Shown here piece by piece: positions 6,232 to 54,869 of a stretch of 64,000 bases of DNA; the first letter of the stretch is position 1, and each line of letters begins with the position of its first letter. This stretch comes from Vulgatibacter incomptus. GTDB lineage: Bacteria > Myxococcota > Myxococcia > Myxococcales > Vulgatibacteraceae. A program made the position numbers and the translations under genes. Where the stretch lies: the NCBI RefSeq assembly GCF_001263175.1, contig NZ_CP012332.1, positions 4,050,220 through 4,114,219 of the forward strand, read 5' to 3'. The notes under the pieces were generated by a model. The model made no database searches. It was not told the origin of the DNA and was given only the letters and a program-made list of their open reading frames with translations.

Positions 6232-7911
6232 ATGGTCGCGGCGGGGACATGGATCCGCACCATTGCGGGCCTTCACCCAAAGCAAATCGTCGGTCGGCCG
6301 TCCTACCGGTTGCGCCGGGCGATTGCTCCGCACGTCGCCACGCGGCTGCAGCCTTGGGCGTTTCGCATTCCCGATCTGCCGGGAGTCGCGCTCTCGCCCA
6401 CCGCATTCGGCGACGAGCAGCGGGAAGCCCTGCGTCGCGGCGAGCTCGCGCTGGTGGGCCTCGCAGGGGCATTGCCCGAGGACGCGCCCTACATCCCCGC
6501 CCACGACGATCCTCTTTACGTCTACGAGTTTCACCAGCTCGGATGGTTCGCGGGCGCACTTGCTACGCTCCCCGAGGCGGATCCGCTCCATGGCCGTTTG
6601 ATCGATTGGCTTGACCGCTACCTCGCCTGGGATCATCCCGGCGATTCGCCGTATTGGGACGCTTATCCGTTGGCGTCACGGCTGCTCACGCTGCTTCCGC
6701 TTGCCGCCAGGGGCTTCATCGGCGGAAAGGGAATCGAGCGTGCGCTCGGCGCTTCGGCAGTCGCGATTCTGGGGCTCCAGGAGACGCATCTGCAGGGCAA
6801 CCACCTGCTGCGCAGCCGCGCTGCCGCAGCGGTATCGAGCGTCTTTTTCGAGGGACCCGCTTCCGACAGCGTCGCTGCCTCTGCCTGGACGGCGCTGGTG
6901 CGCGAAGCGAATGCCCAGTTCTGCGCGGACGGCGTACACGAGGAGCGGACGCCGACGTACCACCTCCTCTGTATTAGCGATTTGCTCGTCTGCATCGAGC
7001 TCGCACGAAAAGCGCAAACACCCGCAATCCGTGCCGAGGTCGAAGCGCTGGTCCGCATCGCTGCGCGCGCCCTCGGCGCGCTGGACGTTCTGACCCATGT
7101 CGACGGACGGATCGCCGCTTTCGGCGACAGCGCGCCTGCGTCGTCCCTTCGCTCCGACGACCTGCGTGCATTCGCCGCTGCGGTCGGTATTCGTTCGACT
7201 GGCCTGCTCGACGTGAGCAAGTCCGGAGGCTGGGCGCGTCAGACTGCAGGGACGAGTGGCTATACGCTCCTTCAGTCGTCGGGGCTATCGCTCTTTCTCT
7301 CCCACGGGCCTTTTGGCGCCAAGCATCAACCTGGGCATGCGCATTGCGACCTCTTCGCCTTTGAACTCGACGTCGAGGGAACGCGCATGATCGTCGACCC
7401 GGGCGTGCACGCCTACCACGACACAGAATGGCGACTGCGTTCGCGGGCGTCGTCGGTTCACGCCACGCCGTCCGTCGAGGGCCGCGAGCAGGCGGAGATC
7501 TGGAGCCGCTTCCGGTGCGGCTGGAGGCCAACGGTAGAGCCGGCGCGGTGGGAGGCCAAGCCGAACGGCTGGCGCGTCGACCTACGCGCCGCGGCGTTCG
7601 GACCGAAGCCCATGCCGGTGGAGCGGACGATCGAATTTGCCGGCACCCAAATTCGGTTCGTCGATCGGCTCCCGGTCGAGTTCTCGGTTGCGCTGCCACT
7701 CGCGCCAGATGTCGAGGTTCGGGTCGATTCGCGAGGAGCCTCGCTCGTCCACCCGAAGGCCGCGAAGGGAATCCAGGTCACGCTCGAGAGCGGCACCTTA
7801 GACCTGGAGACCTGCTCGATCTCGCACGCCTTCGGCGCGCGAACGCCCTCGTGCCGCCTGCGCCTGCGCTCGGATGCAGCCGGTCGATTGGGCTGGAGCT
7901 TACAGGCATGA
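6232..7911 (+). CDS. Heparinase II/III-like family protein
   Basis: This 559-residue protein has an alpha/alpha-toroid N-terminal half and a beta-sandwich C-terminal half typical of the heparinase II/III and alginate-lyase superfamily. The conserved signature HAHCDLFAFELDVEG lies near residue 370, followed by VDPGVHAYHDTEWR. Family members cleave uronic-acid polysaccharides by beta-elimination. Inside biosynthetic clusters they may instead trim or modify the polymer. No signal peptide is visible at the N terminus (MVAAGTWIRTIAGLHPKQI), so a cytoplasmic or membrane-associated role is possible. GGGGAGAG precedes the ATG. Its stop overlaps the next start (ATGA at 7908-7911), indicating translational coupling. 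Confidence 0.88.
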   Translation: MVAAGTWIRTIAGLHPKQIVGRPSYRLRRAIAPHVATRLQPWAFRIPDLPGVALSPTAFGDEQREALRRGELALVGLAGALPEDAPYIPAHDDPLYVYEFHQLGWFAGALATLPEADPLHGRLIDWLDRYLAWDHPGDSPYWDAYPLASRLLTLLPLAARGFIGGKGIERALGASAVAILGLQETHLQGNHLLRSRAAAAVSSVFFEGPASDSVAASAWTALVREANAQFCADGVHEERTPTYHLLCISDLLVCIELARKAQTPAIRAEVEALVRIAARALGALDVLTHVDGRIAAFGDSAPASSLRSDDLRAFAAAVGIRSTGLLDVSKSGGWARQTAGTSGYTLLQSSGLSLFLSHGPFGAKHQPGHAHCDLFAFELDVEGTRMIVDPGVHAYHDTEWRLRSRASSVHATPSVEGREQAEIWSRFRCGWRPTVEPARWEAKPNGWRVDLRAAAFGPKPMPVERTIEFAGTQIRFVDRLPVEFSVALPLAPDVEVRVDSRGASLVHPKAAKGIQVTLESGTLDLETCSISHAFGARTPSCRLRLRSDAAGRLGWSLQA

Positions 7912-9182
7912 AGATCCTCTTCGTTTCGCAGTACTATCCGCCCGAATCGAACGCGCCGGCGAACCGCGTGTCCGAGATGGCGAAGGAGTGGGTACGCATA
8001 GGACATGAGGTCACTGTCCTCACCACCTTTCCGAACCATCCTGAGGGCAAGATCTACCCGGGCCACAAAAACGGCCGACCCCAGGTCGAGGAGCGGGATG
8101 GCGTCCGCGTGGTCCGCGTCCCTGTCTACATCGCGGCGAACAAGGGAATCCTCCGGCGCTCGCTCGCGTATCTGTCTTTCTCGATCAGCGCGGCGATCTT
8201 CGGGACCTACCGGATCGAGCGGCCCGACGTCGTAATTGCTACGAGCCCCCAGCTGCTGGTGGGCGTCGCCGGAGCCTGGCTCTCCGCGCGCTTCCGTAGG
8301 CCCTTTGTCCTCGAGATCCGGGACCTCTGGCCCGATTCCATCGTCGCCGTCGGGGCGCTGCGCGAGGGCCACCCGGCACTCCGTATGCTGCGGCGGATCG
8401 AGCACTGGCTCTATCGCCGCGCGGACGCGGTTGCCGTCGTCACAGAGACCTTCAAGGAAATCCTGCAGCAGCGGGGTGTCACACCGGAGCGGATTGCCTT
8501 CCTGCCGAACGGCGTGGACGATGAGCTTTTCCACCCCCGGGAGCTGCCGAATGATCCGACAGGCGAGAACGATCCGCACCCCGGAAAGTTCGTCGTCACC
8601 TTCGCCGGCACCATCGGAATGGCCCACGGGCTAAAGACGGTCCTCGAAGCTGCCGAACTGCTGAAGGACGATCCGGTGGTGCAGTTCCTTGTTGTCGGCG
8701 ATGGCGCTGAGCGGGCCCAGCTCGAAGCAAAAGTCGCAGAGATGAGGCTGACCAACGTGCAATTCAAGGGCCGGGTGCCACGTTCTGCCGTCGCTGGCAT
8801 CCTCCGGCGAACAGACGCGAGCCTAGTCATGCTTCGGCCTTCTCCGGTCTTCGAGACGGTCCTGCCGTCGAAAATGTTCGAAGCCATGGGGACGGCGACG
8901 CCGATCCTCCTCGGCGTTGACGGCGAGGCGCGACGCCTTCTGGAGCGGGCGGACGCGGGCATCCACTTTCCGCCAGGAGACGCTCGCGCGCTCGTCGTCG
9001 CGATCCAGCGGCTCCGGAACGACCGCGACGAAACGGCGCGCCTGGGCAAGAACGGTCTCGCGTACACGTTGGCGAACTATGAGCGAAGGCGAATCGCGGC
9101 CGGATATGAAGGGCTCCTTCGCGAGATTGCCAGCCCGACGGAGCAGCACACGCCGACCAATGTCGTCGTAGGGGGGGGATAA
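7908..9182 (+). CDS. WbuB/WcaI-like family 4 glycosyltransferase
   Basis: This is a cytoplasmic GT-B fold transferase of 424 residues that adds a sugar to the lipid-linked repeat unit. It opens with MKILFVSQYYPPESNAPANR, typical of the WbuB-type GT4 subgroup, and carries LEIRDLWPDSIVAVG near 130 and a nucleotide-sugar-binding region with VLPSKMFEAMGTATPILLG in the C-terminal half. The start is the ATG overlapping the previous stop (ATGA), chosen over upstream in-frame codons that lie inside the heparinase gene. The acceptor and donor cannot be told from sequence. WbuB relatives transfer N-acetylated amino sugars, which would suit the UDP-ManNAc and UDP-HexNAcA enzymes in this locus. Confidence 0.92.
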   Translation: MKILFVSQYYPPESNAPANRVSEMAKEWVRIGHEVTVLTTFPNHPEGKIYPGHKNGRPQVEERDGVRVVRVPVYIAANKGILRRSLAYLSFSISAAIFGTYRIERPDVVIATSPQLLVGVAGAWLSARFRRPFVLEIRDLWPDSIVAVGALREGHPALRMLRRIEHWLYRRADAVAVVTETFKEILQQRGVTPERIAFLPNGVDDELFHPRELPNDPTGENDPHPGKFVVTFAGTIGMAHGLKTVLEAAELLKDDPVVQFLVVGDGAERAQLEAKVAEMRLTNVQFKGRVPRSAVAGILRRTDASLVMLRPSPVFETVLPSKMFEAMGTATPILLGVDGEARRLLERADAGIHFPPGDARALVVAIQRLRNDRDETARLGKNGLAYTLANYERRRIAAGYEGLLREIASPTEQHTPTNVVVGGG

Positions 9183-47145: not shown

Positions 47146-47371
47146 TGGCGCACTATGCACGACGTCGGGCCGCGCGAGGAACGAGCGTGCGGGCGCCAGG
47201 CCCTTCTTCTCCTGGGAAAGGTGGATCGACGGATGACGTGCTGGGGCCTCTGCTCGGTGCCCGGCGCGAAGCAGTCTTCGTCTTCGAGAAGCCGAGTTTG
47301 CTACCTGTTCGGCTTCCATGAATTTGTGTATGTACGATTGAAGAACACTTCAGGTCTTGGGGAGGCGGGAC

Positions 47372-49183
47372 TTGTTTTCTACCCATCGATGGACGGCGCC
47401 TGCCGTCATGTTTCTGGTTCTCGCTGGGGGCGGCTGCTCCACGGCGCCGGACGGTTCCTCGGGCGACTCGGCGATCTCCGCGGGAGCCGGACTCGAGATG
47501 CAGGAGAGCGAGCTACGGATCGCGATGCCGTATCGACTCCCTCAGGGCTGCCTGGACGGATCCCTCCCGCAGTGGAGCGCTGGCGATTGGGTGTGTGGCG
47601 AGCTTCCGAAGGACACCCTCGCAGGGCTTTCATGTGCCAGCGGTCAGGTCGCGAAGTGGAGCGGCAGCGGTTGGAGCTGCGCGGACGACTGGGACAACGG
47701 TCCCGCGGCGGGCGTCGGCATCAGCGTCAGCGGGACCACGGTGAGCGTCTCGGCGGAGTTTCGCCTTCCGGAGCGGTGCGACAACGGATCCATTCCGCGT
47801 TGGGATGGAACCGAATGGAAATGTGCGATCGAGAGGGACACCCTGGCGTCGCTCTCATGTGTTCCAGGGGCCGTGCCGAGGTGGGATGGCATCGGGTGGA
47901 CCTGCGGAGTCGACGACGACACGCTGGCGTTCCTCTCGTGCGGCGAGGGGCAGGTACCACGGTGGGTCGGGTCGAGATGGGTCTGTTCCGCGGATTCCTC
48001 GGTTTCGTATGGCGCTGGCCTCAGCCAGACCGGGGACACGGTGGCGATCGCGCAGAGTTATCGGCTGCCACAGACGTGCGCGAATGATCAGGTCGCCACC
48101 TGGAGCGGGACGTCATGGGAATGCGCCGCGCGGGGAACCCTCACCGCGGTTAATCCCGGACCCGGCCTGGTTGGCCAGGCCTCCGACGGGACGGCGACCG
48201 TCGGTCTCGATCTCGCCTTCACGGACGATCGCTACCAGGCGCGGTACCAGCGGACGCGCGTCGTGTCGCCGGTCGGAGCCGATCCGCTCGCGAACGGGAC
48301 CGCGCTGTTGAGCGTCGTCGATGCGATTCGAAACAGTACCAGTGTCATCGAGCCCTGGCTCATCCGAGTCGAGCCGGGAACGTACGACGTGGGGACCTTG
48401 AGGGTCGAGTTGCCCCCGGACGTGGTGCTCGAGGGGGCCGGTCCGAGTCATACCATCATCCGTGGGAGCGGAAGTCGCGTGATCGCCGCTTTGTGGCCAG
48501 GTCGGACCGAAATTCGTTCGCTCCGGGTCGAGCTCTCGTCGACGAACTCCCTCGGCGAGGTGACGGCAATCTCGGCAGACGAGCAAGATCTTCGCCTCGT
48601 TCGCGTCGACATCTCCGCATCCGGAGTCGGCCAGGTGTGGGGGGTGAAGTCCAGGCGCATCAGGTATCGCGGACCGGCCCCCGACTTGGCGCTCGAGAGC
48701 TGCCGGATCGAAGTGCAAGGAATCGCACATGGAGTGTCGGGCGGCGTAGTGAGCATCAAGGGGAGCGAGATTCTGGTGGGTGGTGTGGGTCCATCGTTGG
48801 GAGTTCGCGCGTTCGACGATCTGGAGATCGAAGGGACCAAGATCTCCGCGTCTGCGGGGCCCAACACGAATGCCGTGGCGATGGCATTCGAGGTGTCGGA
48901 AGCGGTGGCGCGGATCCGCTCTACGGAGCTGATCGCCAAGGGAAGCGTCGACGCGGTGGGAGCCTCGTTACGCTGTGGCAGGTTGCTACTGACGCTTTCG
49001 TCCGTGACGTTCGACGGGGCGCGAATCGAATCCACCGGTGCCGCCATCGAATCCCAGGATTGCCCCGTTCGTGTTGGCGCATCGATGGTGCAGGGATCCG
49101 TTCTCCTGGAGTCCCGTGGATCCATCACCTGTGCATTCGCTTACGACTCGAGCTATCAGCCCTTGGATGCCGGCTGCCTCTGA
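47372..49183 (+). CDS. Lipoprotein with Cys-Trp modules and beta-helix-like domain
   Basis: A 603-residue lipoprotein. The TTG at 47372 sits six bases after GGGGAGG and gives a signal peptide ending in LAGGGC. Residues about 45-260 contain six modules of about 26 residues with the pattern C-x2-G-x-V/I-x2-W-x4-W-x-C, such as CASGQVAKWSGSGWSC and CVPGAVPRWDGIGWTC, often led by DTLAxLS or YRLPxx. Each has two cysteines able to form a disulfide. Residues from about 310 look like a right-handed beta-helix (PGTYDVGTLRVELPPDVVLE, VVLEGAGPSHTIIRGSG). I know no named family for the module. The protein is likely displayed on the cell surface and may bind glycans or tether fibres. Confidence 0.8.
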   Translation: MFSTHRWTAPAVMFLVLAGGGCSTAPDGSSGDSAISAGAGLEMQESELRIAMPYRLPQGCLDGSLPQWSAGDWVCGELPKDTLAGLSCASGQVAKWSGSGWSCADDWDNGPAAGVGISVSGTTVSVSAEFRLPERCDNGSIPRWDGTEWKCAIERDTLASLSCVPGAVPRWDGIGWTCGVDDDTLAFLSCGEGQVPRWVGSRWVCSADSSVSYGAGLSQTGDTVAIAQSYRLPQTCANDQVATWSGTSWECAARGTLTAVNPGPGLVGQASDGTATVGLDLAFTDDRYQARYQRTRVVSPVGADPLANGTALLSVVDAIRNSTSVIEPWLIRVEPGTYDVGTLRVELPPDVVLEGAGPSHTIIRGSGSRVIAALWPGRTEIRSLRVELSSTNSLGEVTAISADEQDLRLVRVDISASGVGQVWGVKSRRIRYRGPAPDLALESCRIEVQGIAHGVSGGVVSIKGSEILVGGVGPSLGVRAFDDLEIEGTKISASAGPNTNAVAMAFEVSEAVARIRSTELIAKGSVDAVGASLRCGRLLLTLSSVTFDGARIESTGAAIESQDCPVRVGASMVQGSVLLESRGSITCAFAYDSSYQPLDAGCL

Positions 49184-49639: not shown

Positions 49640-49788
49640 CGCGGTGCCTTCCTCGGGCTCGGGTCGAGCGTTTGGAGGCGGGGATCACGGCCCATGCCAG
49701 CACGCCGGCGCGGAGGGCGCAAGAGGTCGTGGCGGCCGCGAGCGCTCGAGATGCGCCGATGTCGGACCCATGGTCTATGGTGCCGACC

Positions 49789-51045
49789 ATGCGGATCCTC
49801 CACACATCGGACTGGCACCTCGGGCACACGCTCCACGACGTGTCGCGGGAGCGGGAGCACGAGCTCTTTCTCGAGTGGCTCCTCGAGGCGATCGGCGCGC
49901 ACGGGGCGGATGCCCTCCTGATCGCCGGCGACGTCTTCGACACCGCGAACCCGCCGGCGGCGGCGCAGGCGATGTTCTACCGCTTCGTGGCGAAGGCGCG
50001 GCGGCGCTACGAGCGGCTGGAGATCGTGGCGATCGGCGGAAACCACGACTCGGCGGATCGGCTCGACGCGCCGTCGCCGCTGCTGGACGGCTTCGACGTG
50101 CGGGTGGTCGGGGGCCTGGCGCGGCGCGCGGATCGTTCCCTTGACCTCGACCGGCTGATCCTCCCGCTGCGCGATCGGGAGGGTGAGGTGCGCGCCTGGG
50201 TCGCGGCCGTGCCCTTCCTGCGGCCGGCGGATCTCCCCGCCGTGCCCGGAGCGGACGATCAGCTGGTGGAGGGCGTGCGCGCGACCTACCGCGAGGTGCT
50301 GGACGCCGTGCGGGAGCGGCGCCGGCCGGGGCAGGCGATCGTGGCGATGGGGCACCTCTACATGACCGGCACCCGGCTCTCGGAGTTGAGCGAGCGGCGG
50401 ATCCTGGGCGGGAACCAGCACGCGCTCCCGGCGGAGATTTTCCCGGACGATGTGGCCTATGCGGCGCTCGGCCACCTCCACCTCGCGCAGCAGGTGGGGC
50501 GGCCGTCGGTGCGCTACAGCGGATCGCCGATCCCCCTGTCGATGTCGGAGCTCGACTATCCGCACCAGGTCTGCCTGGTGGATCTCGAGGGCGAGGGTAT
50601 GCGCTCGGTGGAGCCGCTGCGGGTGCCGCGCTTCGTCGAGCTCCTTCGCGTGCCGCGGTCCGGGGCGCTGGAAAGAGAAGCCCTGTTGGAGGCGCTCAGG
50701 GCGCTGCCGAACGGGACGCTGCCGGAGGCAGACGGGGCCGACGCCGCGTTGCGGCCCTTCCTCGAGGTCCGGGTACGGCAGACGCGGCCGGATCCCTCGC
50801 TTCGCCGCGACGTGGAGCAGGCCCTGGAGGGCAAGGCCGCGCGCCTCGTCAAGCTGGGCATCGAGCTCGGCGGCGACGGCAAGTCCCTCGCCGATCGGGT
50901 GGAGCTGCAGATGCTGGACGAGCTCCTGCCGGAGAAGGTCTTCGAGGACCGCTGGAAGAAGGAGCACCCCGGAGAGCCGCCGCCGGACTTGATGGCGGCG
51001 TTCCTGGAGCTGGTAGGTGACGTGCAGCAGGGGAGGGCGTCGTGA
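49789..51045 (+). CDS. sbcD: SbcD: Mre11-type nuclease subunit
   Basis: The protein is the nuclease half of the SbcCD complex that cleaves hairpins and protein-blocked DNA ends. The 418-residue protein has all metallophosphoesterase motifs: DWHLGH (8-13), IAGDVFDTANPP near 48, GGNHDSADR near 84, MGHLYMTG near 188 and LGHLHLAQQ near 227. The ATG at 49789 gives the conserved MRILHTSDWH opening. Its TGA overlaps the sbcC GTG by four bases. This coupling is the usual arrangement and keeps subunit ratios balanced. Confidence 0.96.
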   Translation: MRILHTSDWHLGHTLHDVSREREHELFLEWLLEAIGAHGADALLIAGDVFDTANPPAAAQAMFYRFVAKARRRYERLEIVAIGGNHDSADRLDAPSPLLDGFDVRVVGGLARRADRSLDLDRLILPLRDREGEVRAWVAAVPFLRPADLPAVPGADDQLVEGVRATYREVLDAVRERRRPGQAIVAMGHLYMTGTRLSELSERRILGGNQHALPAEIFPDDVAYAALGHLHLAQQVGRPSVRYSGSPIPLSMSELDYPHQVCLVDLEGEGMRSVEPLRVPRFVELLRVPRSGALEREALLEALRALPNGTLPEADGADAALRPFLEVRVRQTRPDPSLRRDVEQALEGKAARLVKLGIELGGDGKSLADRVELQMLDELLPEKVFEDRWKKEHPGEPPPDLMAAFLELVGDVQQGRAS

Positions 51046-54000
51046 AGATCCTCGCGGTTCGGGGCGAGAACCTCGCCAGCCTCCACGGCCCGTTCGAGCT
51101 CGACTTCGAGGCGGAGCCCCTCGAGCGAGCGGGCCTCTTCGCGATCACGGGCCCAACGGGCGCGGGCAAGAGCACCTTGCTCGACGCGATCTGCCTGGCG
51201 CTCTACGGGACCACGCCGCGGATCGAGTCGGTGGCCGGGCGCGGCTACGACGTGGGTCGGGAGGGCGAGGAGAGCCGGCTGGGCAGCACGGATCCCGCGA
51301 CGATCCTGCGCAAGGGCACGGCCTCCGGCGGGGCCGAGGTCGTGTTCCGTGGCCGTGATGGGATTCGTTACCGCGCGTGTTGGAAGCTGCAGAGGGCCCG
51401 CGGCCGGATCGACGGGAAGATCCAGAAGCCCACCGTCCAGCTCTGGAACGACGAGACCTCGACGGCGATCGGGCGGACGGCCACGGAGGTCTACCGCGCG
51501 ATCGAGGCGGCGATCGGCCTGTCGTACGAGCAGTTCTGCCGCTCGGTGTTGCTCGCGCAGGGCGAGTTCGCGCGCTTCCTCCAGGCCGGCGAGAAGGACC
51601 GGGCCGAGCTCCTCGAGCGGGTGACGGGAACGGAGATCTACCGGCACCTCTCGATCGCCGCCCACGAGCGCCACGCGGAGGCGAAGCGGGCCCTCGCCGA
51701 GCTGCAGCGGGAGCTGGACGGGGAGCGGATCCTCTCGAACGAGGAGCGGCTTGCTCTCGAGGCGTCGAGGGGCGAAGCGGAGAAGGCGCTCGTCGAGGCG
51801 CGGGCCTCGCTGCAGGAGGCGGTGGACGCCCATGCCTGGCACGAGGCCTTGGAGCGCTTCGAGTCGGGTGAGCGGGAGGCCGATGCAGCGATCGCTCTCG
51901 CCGAGGCGGCGTGGACGGAGAGCGCCCCGATGCGCGAGGCCCTCGTCGCGGCGGAGCAGGCGTTGCCGCTCCGGCCGCTCTTCGAGGCCGCCGACGACGC
52001 GGTGCGGGACGAGGTTCGAGCGGCGGAAGGCGTTGAGGCTGCGGTTCGGGCCCACGCGGAGGCCGTCGTTGCCAGCGAGGGCGCGGCTCGGGGGCTCGCG
52101 GGAGCGAGGGACCGACAGGAGCAGGTGGCGGCGTCGCAGGAAGCGGCCCGGCCCGAGCTCGAGGAGGCGCGGCGCCTAGACGCAGAGCTGGGAGCTGCGA
52201 AGGCGGGGGCAGCGGAAGCGCTCGAAAAGCGCCGCGAGGCCGCCTCCCGTGTGGAAGCTCAGCGGGAGGGTCTCGCCTCGATCCGCGGCTCCATGGCTCG
52301 GGCAGAGGCGGCGCGGTCGGCGGCGATCGCGTGGTTGGATGAGCACGGCCGGCTCTCGGCGCTCGCCGGGCAGTGGGAGCGCTGGCGTACGGAGCTCGAG
52401 CGTGCCGCAGGCGTGCAGGGGCGTGAGCGCACAGCGACCGCGCGGCTCTCGGTCCTCGAGAGGGAGAAGACGTCGCTGGAGGGAATGGTCGCTGCGGCGG
52501 GCGCCGCGGTGGTCGAGGTCGATGCACGCTTTTCTGAGGCGTGTGAAGTCGAGGCCTCCGCGGTGCGGGCCTCTGAATCGCTTCCGAGGGCGTCGCTGCG
52601 GGCGCAGCGGGGAGCTCTCGAGAGGACGGAGCGCCACGCACGCTCTCTGGAGGGCGTCGTCGAGGAGTCGGTTCGGCTGCAGGTCGAGCTGGGCTCGCTC
52701 CGTTCACAGGCGGCTTCTATTGCGACGGAGCGTGATCGGTGGAGCGGGGAAGCGCTGAAGCTCTCGGCGCAGCGCGAGCTCCTCGGCTCTCAGCTCGAAG
52801 CGGCAGCGCTCGAGGCGCAGGCCGCGCGCGACGCGCTGGAGCTCGGCGATCGGCGTGCGCTCCTCCGGGACGGCGAGGCGTGTCCGCTCTGCGGCTCGCC
52901 GGATCATCCCTGGGGGGCTGAGGGCGCGGCGATCGCGGGGAGGCTTGCCGAGCGCGAGGCGCGACTCTCATCGCTGCGGATCGATCATGCCCGGGTGGAC
53001 CGCGCCCACGCCGAAGCGGCGACGCGAGCCGAGGCGGCGGCGGGACAGGTGTCGGCCCACGAGAGGGCCGCGGACGAGAAGCTCGGGCGGGCGGCGGCGC
53101 TCGGCGACGCGTTCCGCGAAGAGCGGTCGGGACTGGAGCGTGAGAACGCGGCCGGCCCGGACGATGGCGCTGACGGGGCCGACGTGGCGGATTCGTCAGC
53201 ACGGAGGCGCGCGGAGTGGATGGCGATCCCGGTGCGGCTGGACCTCTTGGTTCCAGAGGATGCGCGGGCGGCCAGGGACGCCGTGACGGCGTTGCTCGAG
53301 GCGCTGGGCGAGGAGAGGAGGGCGCTCGATCGGCGCGAGTCGGAGGCGGAGCGCCTGGAGGGGCAGGCGTCGCTCGCTCGGGCGAGGGTGGCCTCGCTGC
53401 GGCAGGAGAAGGAGTCTCGGGAGGCGACGCTTCGCGCGGGTGAGCAGAAGCTCCAGCGCTTCGCTGTCGAGGCACAGGAGCTACGGCTCCGTTCGGAGGG
53501 TGCGCGCGACGAGGTCGCCGGGATCTTGCGACCGCTTGCTCCGATCCTGGACGCAGCTCGGGCCTCGTGGCGCGAAGACTTCGAGCGGAATCCGCGCGAG
53601 CTCGTCGACGGCCTTGGGCGGGAGGCGGCCCAGTGGAGCGCCCACGACGCCGACCGGGCCCGCGCGGTGGAGAGCCTGGCGCTCTTGCATCCCCGTGAGG
53701 CGGCGGCGGTCTCCCTGCTCGGCGAACGCGAGTCCGCGGACGACGCGGCGGTCCGGGCCCAGGAGAATGCTGCTGCCTCTGCCGACGAGCTCTCGCGCCG
53801 GCGCGGCCTCGTGCTGGGCGGCGAGCCGGTATCCGTCCGGGAGGCCGCGCTGCGGGAGGCCGGGGCCGCCGCTTCGAAGGCGCTCGAGGCGGCTCGGGGC
53901 GTGGAGGCCCTCGCGTCGAGCTCGCTCGCGCGCGCGTCCGCGCTCGTGGAGGCGAGCGAGGAGAAGCGGGTGCAGGCGGGGGCGGCTCGGGCGCAGAAGG

Positions 54001-54869
54001 AGGCGGCGCGCGAGACGGCCCTCGCGGACGCCGGGTTGACGTTCGAGGAGGCGCGGGCGCGGCTCAACCGCTATCCGGCGGAGCTCGAGGGCTGGCGGCG
54101 GCGGGCAGCGGACCTCGAGCGCGGCCGGGATCGGGCCCGCACCCTGGCCGACGAGCGCGTCCGCGCCCGTGTGGCCCACGAGGCGTCGGGGCGACCGCCT
54201 CTGGATGCAGAGGCCGCCAAATTGGCGAAGGAGGAGCGCGCGGCGAGCTGCTCGAGCCGGGAGACGGCCTTCCACGACGTTCGCGGCAGGCTCGGCGCCG
54301 ACGACGAGGCGCGAAAGAGAGGGGCCGCGATGCTGCCCCGGCTCGAGGCCGCCGGGGCGGAGGCGAAGAGGTGGTCCGACCTCCACGAGCTCATCGGCTC
54401 CGCCAGCGGCGACAAGTTCCAACTCTTCGCGCAGAGCCTCTCCCTCCAGGTGCTCCTCGCCCACGCGAACGTGCACCTCGAGGAGCTGGTCCCGCGCTAC
54501 CGCCTCGAGAGGGTTCCCGGCCACGACCTGCAGCTCCAGGTGGTCGACCGGGACATGGGCGATGAGGTCCGCGCTGCGAGCACGCTCTCCGGCGGCGAGA
54601 CCTTCCTGGTCTCTCTCGCCCTCGCTCTCGGCCTGTCGGGCCTCTCCTCGCGCGCGCGGGTGGAGTCGCTCTTCATCGACGAGGGGTTCGGCACCCTCGA
54701 TCCCCAAGCGCTCGACACCGCTCTCGCCGCGCTGGACGCCCTGCAGGCGACGGGGCGGAAGGTGGGCGTGATCTCGCACGTACAGGGCATGGCGGAACGG
54801 ATCGGCGTCCAGGTGCAAGTCCAGCCGGAGGGGAGCGGCCGGAGCAAGGTCAGCGTGGCCGTGCGCTGA
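51042..54869 (+). CDS. sbcC: SbcC: Rad50-type ATPase subunit
   Basis: A 1275-residue SMC-like ATPase that pairs with SbcD. The Walker A motif is GPTGAGKST (37-45), followed by a long coiled coil on both sides of a zinc-hook (Cys614 and Cys617 in CPLCGSPDHPW). The C-terminal ATPase half has the ABC signature LSGGETFLVSLALALGLS (from 1182) and Walker B LFIDEGFGTLDPQ (about 1207-1219). Length is on the large side for SbcC. The coiled coil is unusually rich in Ala, Glu and Arg. GTG start coupled to sbcD. Confidence 0.96.
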   Translation: MKILAVRGENLASLHGPFELDFEAEPLERAGLFAITGPTGAGKSTLLDAICLALYGTTPRIESVAGRGYDVGREGEESRLGSTDPATILRKGTASGGAEVVFRGRDGIRYRACWKLQRARGRIDGKIQKPTVQLWNDETSTAIGRTATEVYRAIEAAIGLSYEQFCRSVLLAQGEFARFLQAGEKDRAELLERVTGTEIYRHLSIAAHERHAEAKRALAELQRELDGERILSNEERLALEASRGEAEKALVEARASLQEAVDAHAWHEALERFESGEREADAAIALAEAAWTESAPMREALVAAEQALPLRPLFEAADDAVRDEVRAAEGVEAAVRAHAEAVVASEGAARGLAGARDRQEQVAASQEAARPELEEARRLDAELGAAKAGAAEALEKRREAASRVEAQREGLASIRGSMARAEAARSAAIAWLDEHGRLSALAGQWERWRTELERAAGVQGRERTATARLSVLEREKTSLEGMVAAAGAAVVEVDARFSEACEVEASAVRASESLPRASLRAQRGALERTERHARSLEGVVEESVRLQVELGSLRSQAASIATERDRWSGEALKLSAQRELLGSQLEAAALEAQAARDALELGDRRALLRDGEACPLCGSPDHPWGAEGAAIAGRLAEREARLSSLRIDHARVDRAHAEAATRAEAAAGQVSAHERAADEKLGRAAALGDAFREERSGLERENAAGPDDGADGADVADSSARRRAEWMAIPVRLDLLVPEDARAARDAVTALLEALGEERRALDRRESEAERLEGQASLARARVASLRQEKESREATLRAGEQKLQRFAVEAQELRLRSEGARDEVAGILRPLAPILDAARASWREDFERNPRELVDGLGREAAQWSAHDADRARAVESLALLHPREAAAVSLLGERESADDAAVRAQENAAASADELSRRRGLVLGGEPVSVREAALREAGAAASKALEAARGVEALASSSLARASALVEASEEKRVQAGAARAQKEAARETALADAGLTFEEARARLNRYPAELEGWRRRAADLERGRDRARTLADERVRARVAHEASGRPPLDAEAAKLAKEERAASCSSRETAFHDVRGRLGADDEARKRGAAMLPRLEAAGAEAKRWSDLHELIGSASGDKFQLFAQSLSLQVLLAHANVHLEELVPRYRLERVPGHDLQLQVVDRDMGDEVRAASTLSGGETFLVSLALALGLSGLSSRARVESLFIDEGFGTLDPQALDTALAALDALQATGRKVGVISHVQGMAERIGVQVQVQPEGSGRSKVSVAVR

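Follow-up and report, generated by a model that had tools for sequence, protein, structure and literature searches.

Chimeric surface fibres that resemble phage fibres and carry exchangeable tips, termed mosaic adhesive trimers (MATs), have been described in Bdellovibrio (PMC10769870). Their N-terminal family is NF053851, and an S74 tip domain marks one of their two subfamilies; neither disulf- nor cysteine appears in the main text of that description (PMC10769870). The window analysed here, a stretch of 64,000 nucleotides from Vulgatibacter incomptus, encodes a surface protein that we compare with these fibres. We favour, with moderate confidence, its reading as a membrane-anchored, probably trimeric outer-surface fibre that carries a binding head on a stalk of rigid hairpin beads. 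Among 33 proteins carrying the hairpin module, a set that includes the window protein and three paralogues from its own genome, NF053851 (Bdello_MAT_N, NCBIfam) co-occurs with the module in 8, Peptidase_S74 (Pfam) in 7 and Collagen (Pfam) in 2; the latter two are also found in 9 and 6 of 67 others, respectively. The window protein itself matches neither NF053851 nor S74 nor collagen, and is probably lipid-anchored. On our best reading, it belongs to a kind already known, the phage-fibre-like display proteins, of which the unnamed hairpin stalk is a variant.

The window protein and its modules

The gene is an open reading frame at 47357-49183 (+) with a TTG start, encoding 608 residues. An earlier note on this DNA had recognised the frame and begun it at 47372, which is the second in-frame TTG. 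The product is probably a lipoprotein and has the following layout:

47357..47437, + strand: signal peptide and probable lipobox LAGGG-C, seen by eye; lipid Cys is residue 27 (47435-47437)
47474..47548, + strand: shaft segment GAGL...YRLPQG preceding module 1; its junction Y/F-R/Q-L-P-x2-C recurs in other phyla
47549..47596, + strand: module 1, CLDGSLPQWSAGDWVC; found by pattern, lowest profile score (3.5 bits), outside the predicted fragment
47633..47680, + strand: module 2, CASGQVAKWSGSGWSC; found by pattern, 44.3 bits, outside the predicted fragment
47705..47776, + strand: shaft segment preceding module 3, ending FRLPER; predicted strands at fragment residues 8-14 and 17-23
47777..47824, + strand: module 3, CDNGSIPRWDGTEWKC; found by pattern, 23.7 bits, predicted hairpin
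47858..47905, + strand: module 4, CVPGAVPRWDGIGWTC; found by pattern, 30.5 bits, predicted hairpin
47939..47986, + strand: module 5, CGEGQVPRWVGSRWVC; found by pattern, 44.3 bits, predicted hairpin
48008..48076, + strand: shaft segment YGAGLSQTGDTVAIAQSYRLPQT; low model confidence
48077..48124, + strand: module 6, CANDQVATWSGTSWEC; found by pattern, 39.0 bits, predicted hairpin
48212..49180, + strand: head, probable right-handed beta-helix with C-terminal C-x3-YD-x4-PL-x3-C; from the family profile against PDB and family alignments

A canonical lipobox has Leu at -3, where the window protein has Gly. The lipid anchor at Cys27 would hold the N-terminus, and the stalk beyond it would alternate phage-fibre-like GxGL segments with short beta-hairpins. 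Six copies of C-x7-W-x4-W-x-C begin at residues 65, 93, 141, 168, 195 and 241, forming an array over residues 65-256; the relaxed C-x7-W-x(4-6)-W-x-C fits all six, and none of 2,000 shuffled versions of the sequence contains more than one fit. The earlier note was thus right about the number of modules, and its literal pattern, C-x2-G-x-V-x2-W-x4-W-x-C, fits only three of them. Neither the literal nor the relaxed pattern occurs elsewhere in the window in six frames. W-x-G is present in five modules and W-D-G in two. With window and own-genome rows left out, a profile of 76 modules from elsewhere recovers the window protein (E 1.6e-48): five modules score 23.7-44.3 bits and module 1 scores 3.5, against 7.0 bits for the best of 200 shuffles and 10.7 bits for the best other ORF of the window. 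The Y/F-R/Q-L-P-x2-C junction precedes modules 1, 3 and 6 and was found in 21 ORFs outside the own genome, and the GxGL...Y-R/Q-LPQ-x-C build of the shaft segment before module 6 also occurs in Chloroflexi loci L012 and L040.

For modules 3-6, an AlphaFold model of 151 stalk residues (112-262; single chain, 29 homologous rows; mean pLDDT 74.2, pTM 0.32) predicts a beta-hairpin in each module, its first strand running up to one Trp and its second starting from the other, on either side of the four-residue turn; modules 1 and 2 are not part of this fragment. Of the small disulfide-pinned hairpin that the earlier note suggested looking for, the hairpin is predicted in these four modules, and the disulfide, which would run from the lead-in of the first strand across to the second, is suggested by the pairing of Cys across copies. 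A Trp pair across a tight turn is also the hallmark of tryptophan zippers; these are designed peptides, and we claim no homology. Foldseek found no PDB match at E 0.001 and a single, unnamed viral match at 2.1e-4; VIA-align gave only Z 2.1-2.3. A single-sequence model of stalk and head was too poor (mean pLDDT 37.6) and was set aside.

A paired clamp and a probable viral counterpart

No family in Pfam or NCBIfam covers any of 83 scanned modules, the best matches among these fragments being isolated and weak, which bears out the earlier view that the module lacks a name. Its supposed novelty did not hold up, as the module is neither rare nor new to sequence databases and is spread over many phyla. 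The strict pattern C-x2-G-Q-[VIM]-x2-W-x-G-x2-W-x-C occurs in at least 114 stretches of genome contigs, and the 80 matches listed include Myxococcota, Chloroflexota, Acidobacteria, Saccharibacteria and other Patescibacteria, Elusimicrobia, several Proteobacteria, Actinomycetes and archaeal MAGs, where single assignments may be wrong because most matches are MAGs. Among 195 Myxococcota genomes, 8 carry the strict pattern, the own genome included, with 0 in every row of a reversed control. The commonest period of tandem modules is 27 residues; one Myxococcales MAG protein (L073:3-3599) carries 17 modules by the strict and 23 by the relaxed pattern, many of them with this spacing. PHROGs touch the module weakly: 24 of 83 copies match phrog_9627, at 8.9e-5 at best, and 12 of 83 match the tail-fibre family phrog_9729; the window stalk has no PHROG match at 0.05. 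A profile search of PDB sequences with the modules returned no match, a tblastn search of phages and plasmids with a tandem-module stretch of L008 found none, and the titles and abstract openings searched by the module's letters and related themes hold no description of it.

The two Cys behave as a pair. When Cys columns were masked in the profile and all ORFs of loci L008-L126 were scored, 270 distinct copies had both Cys, 4 neither and 0 a single one (23 unaligned at one end), totals that favour Cys because these loci were fetched by the Cys pattern; with strict instances excluded, the counts were 44, 4 and 0. Three of the four Cys-less copies have P...P at the clamp and one has A...P or similar. 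A Cys-less pattern is abundant in viral contigs, with at least 120 stretches versus 5 contigs for the strict Cys pattern, and none of 195 Myxococcota genomes has it. The consensus of this unnamed hairpin, P-x2-G-Q-V-L-x-W-N-G-x2-W-V-P, has Pro at the two Cys positions; its core, G-x4-W-[ND]-G-x2-W, spaces G, Trp, G and Trp as the module does, at positions that the search patterns had fixed beforehand. In 54 non-redundant viral fragments, position 1, which the pattern leaves free, is Pro in 37, and position 16 is Pro in all 54, as the search pattern required; no fragment contains any Cys. Pro at both clamp positions is absent from the window protein, where Cys fills both in six of six modules.

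The Cys-masked module profile matches 121 of 123 viral Cys-less ORFs, and profile-profile comparison of the two forms gives a probability of 97.5, a score that is partly circular because both sets were picked by patterns fixing most core positions. The viral-form profile has one non-significant PDB match (E 0.3). We regard the viral Cys-less ORFs as putative tail fibres, a label taken from the PHROGs that module proteins match. Judged by hydrophobicity with a simple rule, signal-like N-termini are present in 78 of 97 cellular Cys ORFs and 3 of 4 viral-contig Cys ORFs, and nearly absent from viral Cys-less ORFs (3 of 109), a comparison confounded because the Cys-less set is drawn from viral contigs and the Cys set for the most part from cellular genomes. 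The Cys/Cys hairpin looks like an exported counterpart of the Pro/Pro hairpin common in viral sequences, in which a disulfide would stiffen the bead outside the cell.

More broadly, and tentatively, phage-type fibres and exported bacterial or archaeal fibres may share one hairpin with a paired clamp switch, Pro/Pro if folded in the reducing cytoplasm and Cys/Cys if exported, with the myxobacterial clamped stalk and collagen serving as interchangeable carriers of the same adhesive head. A module that many phyla carry without a name would acquire a fold, a clamp and a likely kinship with viral fibre sequences. Many surface proteins now listed as hypothetical, including some from Patescibacteria and archaeal MAGs, would become easier to annotate.

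The head, its stalks and rival readings

The beta-helix-like tail suggested in the earlier note is supported at the family level, and the architecture of stalk plus beta-helix fits a six-module stalk with a pectin-lyase-like head. Against PDB sequences, the head family profile matches 1gq8 best (2.9e-4), followed by 1xg2 (8.3e-4), and all five listed matches are a pectinesterase, C5 epimerase, polygalacturonase or pectin lyase, making the head a probable member of a pectin-lyase-like beta-helix family; searched by itself, the window sequence yields no such match. The profile finds heads in 25 of 195 genomes and in none of the module loci L008-L126. Of 27 distinct head ORFs, 22 have a collagen-like stalk (21 from the ORF re-scan plus L162), 4 have W/C modules, all in the own genome, and 1, with a reading frame apparently broken upstream, has neither. 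This tally derives from 30 fetched loci, leaving out L168, L172, L173, L175 and L179, which had no ORF passing 1e-5 on re-scan, and discounting L151, which duplicates the L149 ORF. The collagen-stalked proteins of same-order relatives share the head family and mostly its C-terminal Cys motif, with a Gly-X-Y stalk where the window protein has hairpin modules. In the only same-family genome searched (L174), the head gene lacks a stalk and has an apparent frame break upstream. Head and collagen proteins of L156, L166, L168 and L171 carry a further Cys module ending VCNG, ICKG or ACNG, which we take to be DUF7151-like; DUF7151 matches 1 of 67 module proteins.

The window stalk probably trimerises, since a collagen-like stalk takes its place in relatives of the same head, and this exchange would make trimerisation directly testable. 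A monomeric string of beads, in which disulfide hairpins act as a flexible spacer, would suit the low model confidence between modules 5 and 6 and the EGF strings among the best, non-significant Foldseek PDB matches (E 0.064 and worse); we consider it rather unlikely, given the collagen-like stalk under the same head in 22 of 27 ORFs and the fusion of the module with S74 and collagen in other proteins. It is also improbable that the stalk does the binding through small carbohydrate-binding units, resembling the aromatic hairpins of CBM5/12 or choline repeats, even though each module has two conserved Trp and the spacing G-x4-aromatic-x-G-x2-aromatic recalls CBM5/12, since the Trp flank the turn in the model and may be structural. 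CBM_5_12 does match somewhere along 2 of 67 full-length module proteins, at 1.4e-4 at best, and 1 of 83 module fragments (E 0.03). CBM5/12 kinship was rejected at an hhalign probability of 0.1 (modules against at most 15 CBM repeats of relatives); PF02839 (CBM5/12) has no match in the own genome, and the choline-binding repeat, presumably PF01473, is not among the 13 Pfam families listed for the 83 modules at E up to 1.

For the head, likeness to pectinesterase and other pectin-lyase-fold enzymes could point to an active polysaccharide lyase or esterase on a stalk. We hold this to be quite improbable, as the E-values speak for the fold only and no acidic or basic residue is invariant or nearly so across 26 heads. 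Under the favoured reading of a fibre with a binding head, the head would most likely act by binding, and not by cutting, a polysaccharide or partner surface, and we infer an adhesive or glycan-binding role, as the earlier note proposed.

Genomic setting

The window protein as a whole has no match in Pfam or NCBIfam at E up to 10, a single PHROG match (E 0.98) and two PDB chains (E 0.47 and 1); tblastn found none in phages and plasmids, and whole-protein scans of viral and genome contigs confirmed no relative. Third-position GC is 0.77 in the gene, versus 0.84-0.92 in four neighbouring ORFs. Opposite-strand ORFs flank it on both sides, and their translations suggest a TauE-type permease and a GNAT acetyltransferase; further ORFs downstream, at window positions 49771-54869, resemble SbcD and SbcC in their translations. 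The host genome, a single contig of 4,350,553 bases, holds the window gene and three paralogues. Two of these lie in tandem (L148:4801-6207 and 6443-8251), adjoined by an ORF resembling an outer-membrane efflux protein.
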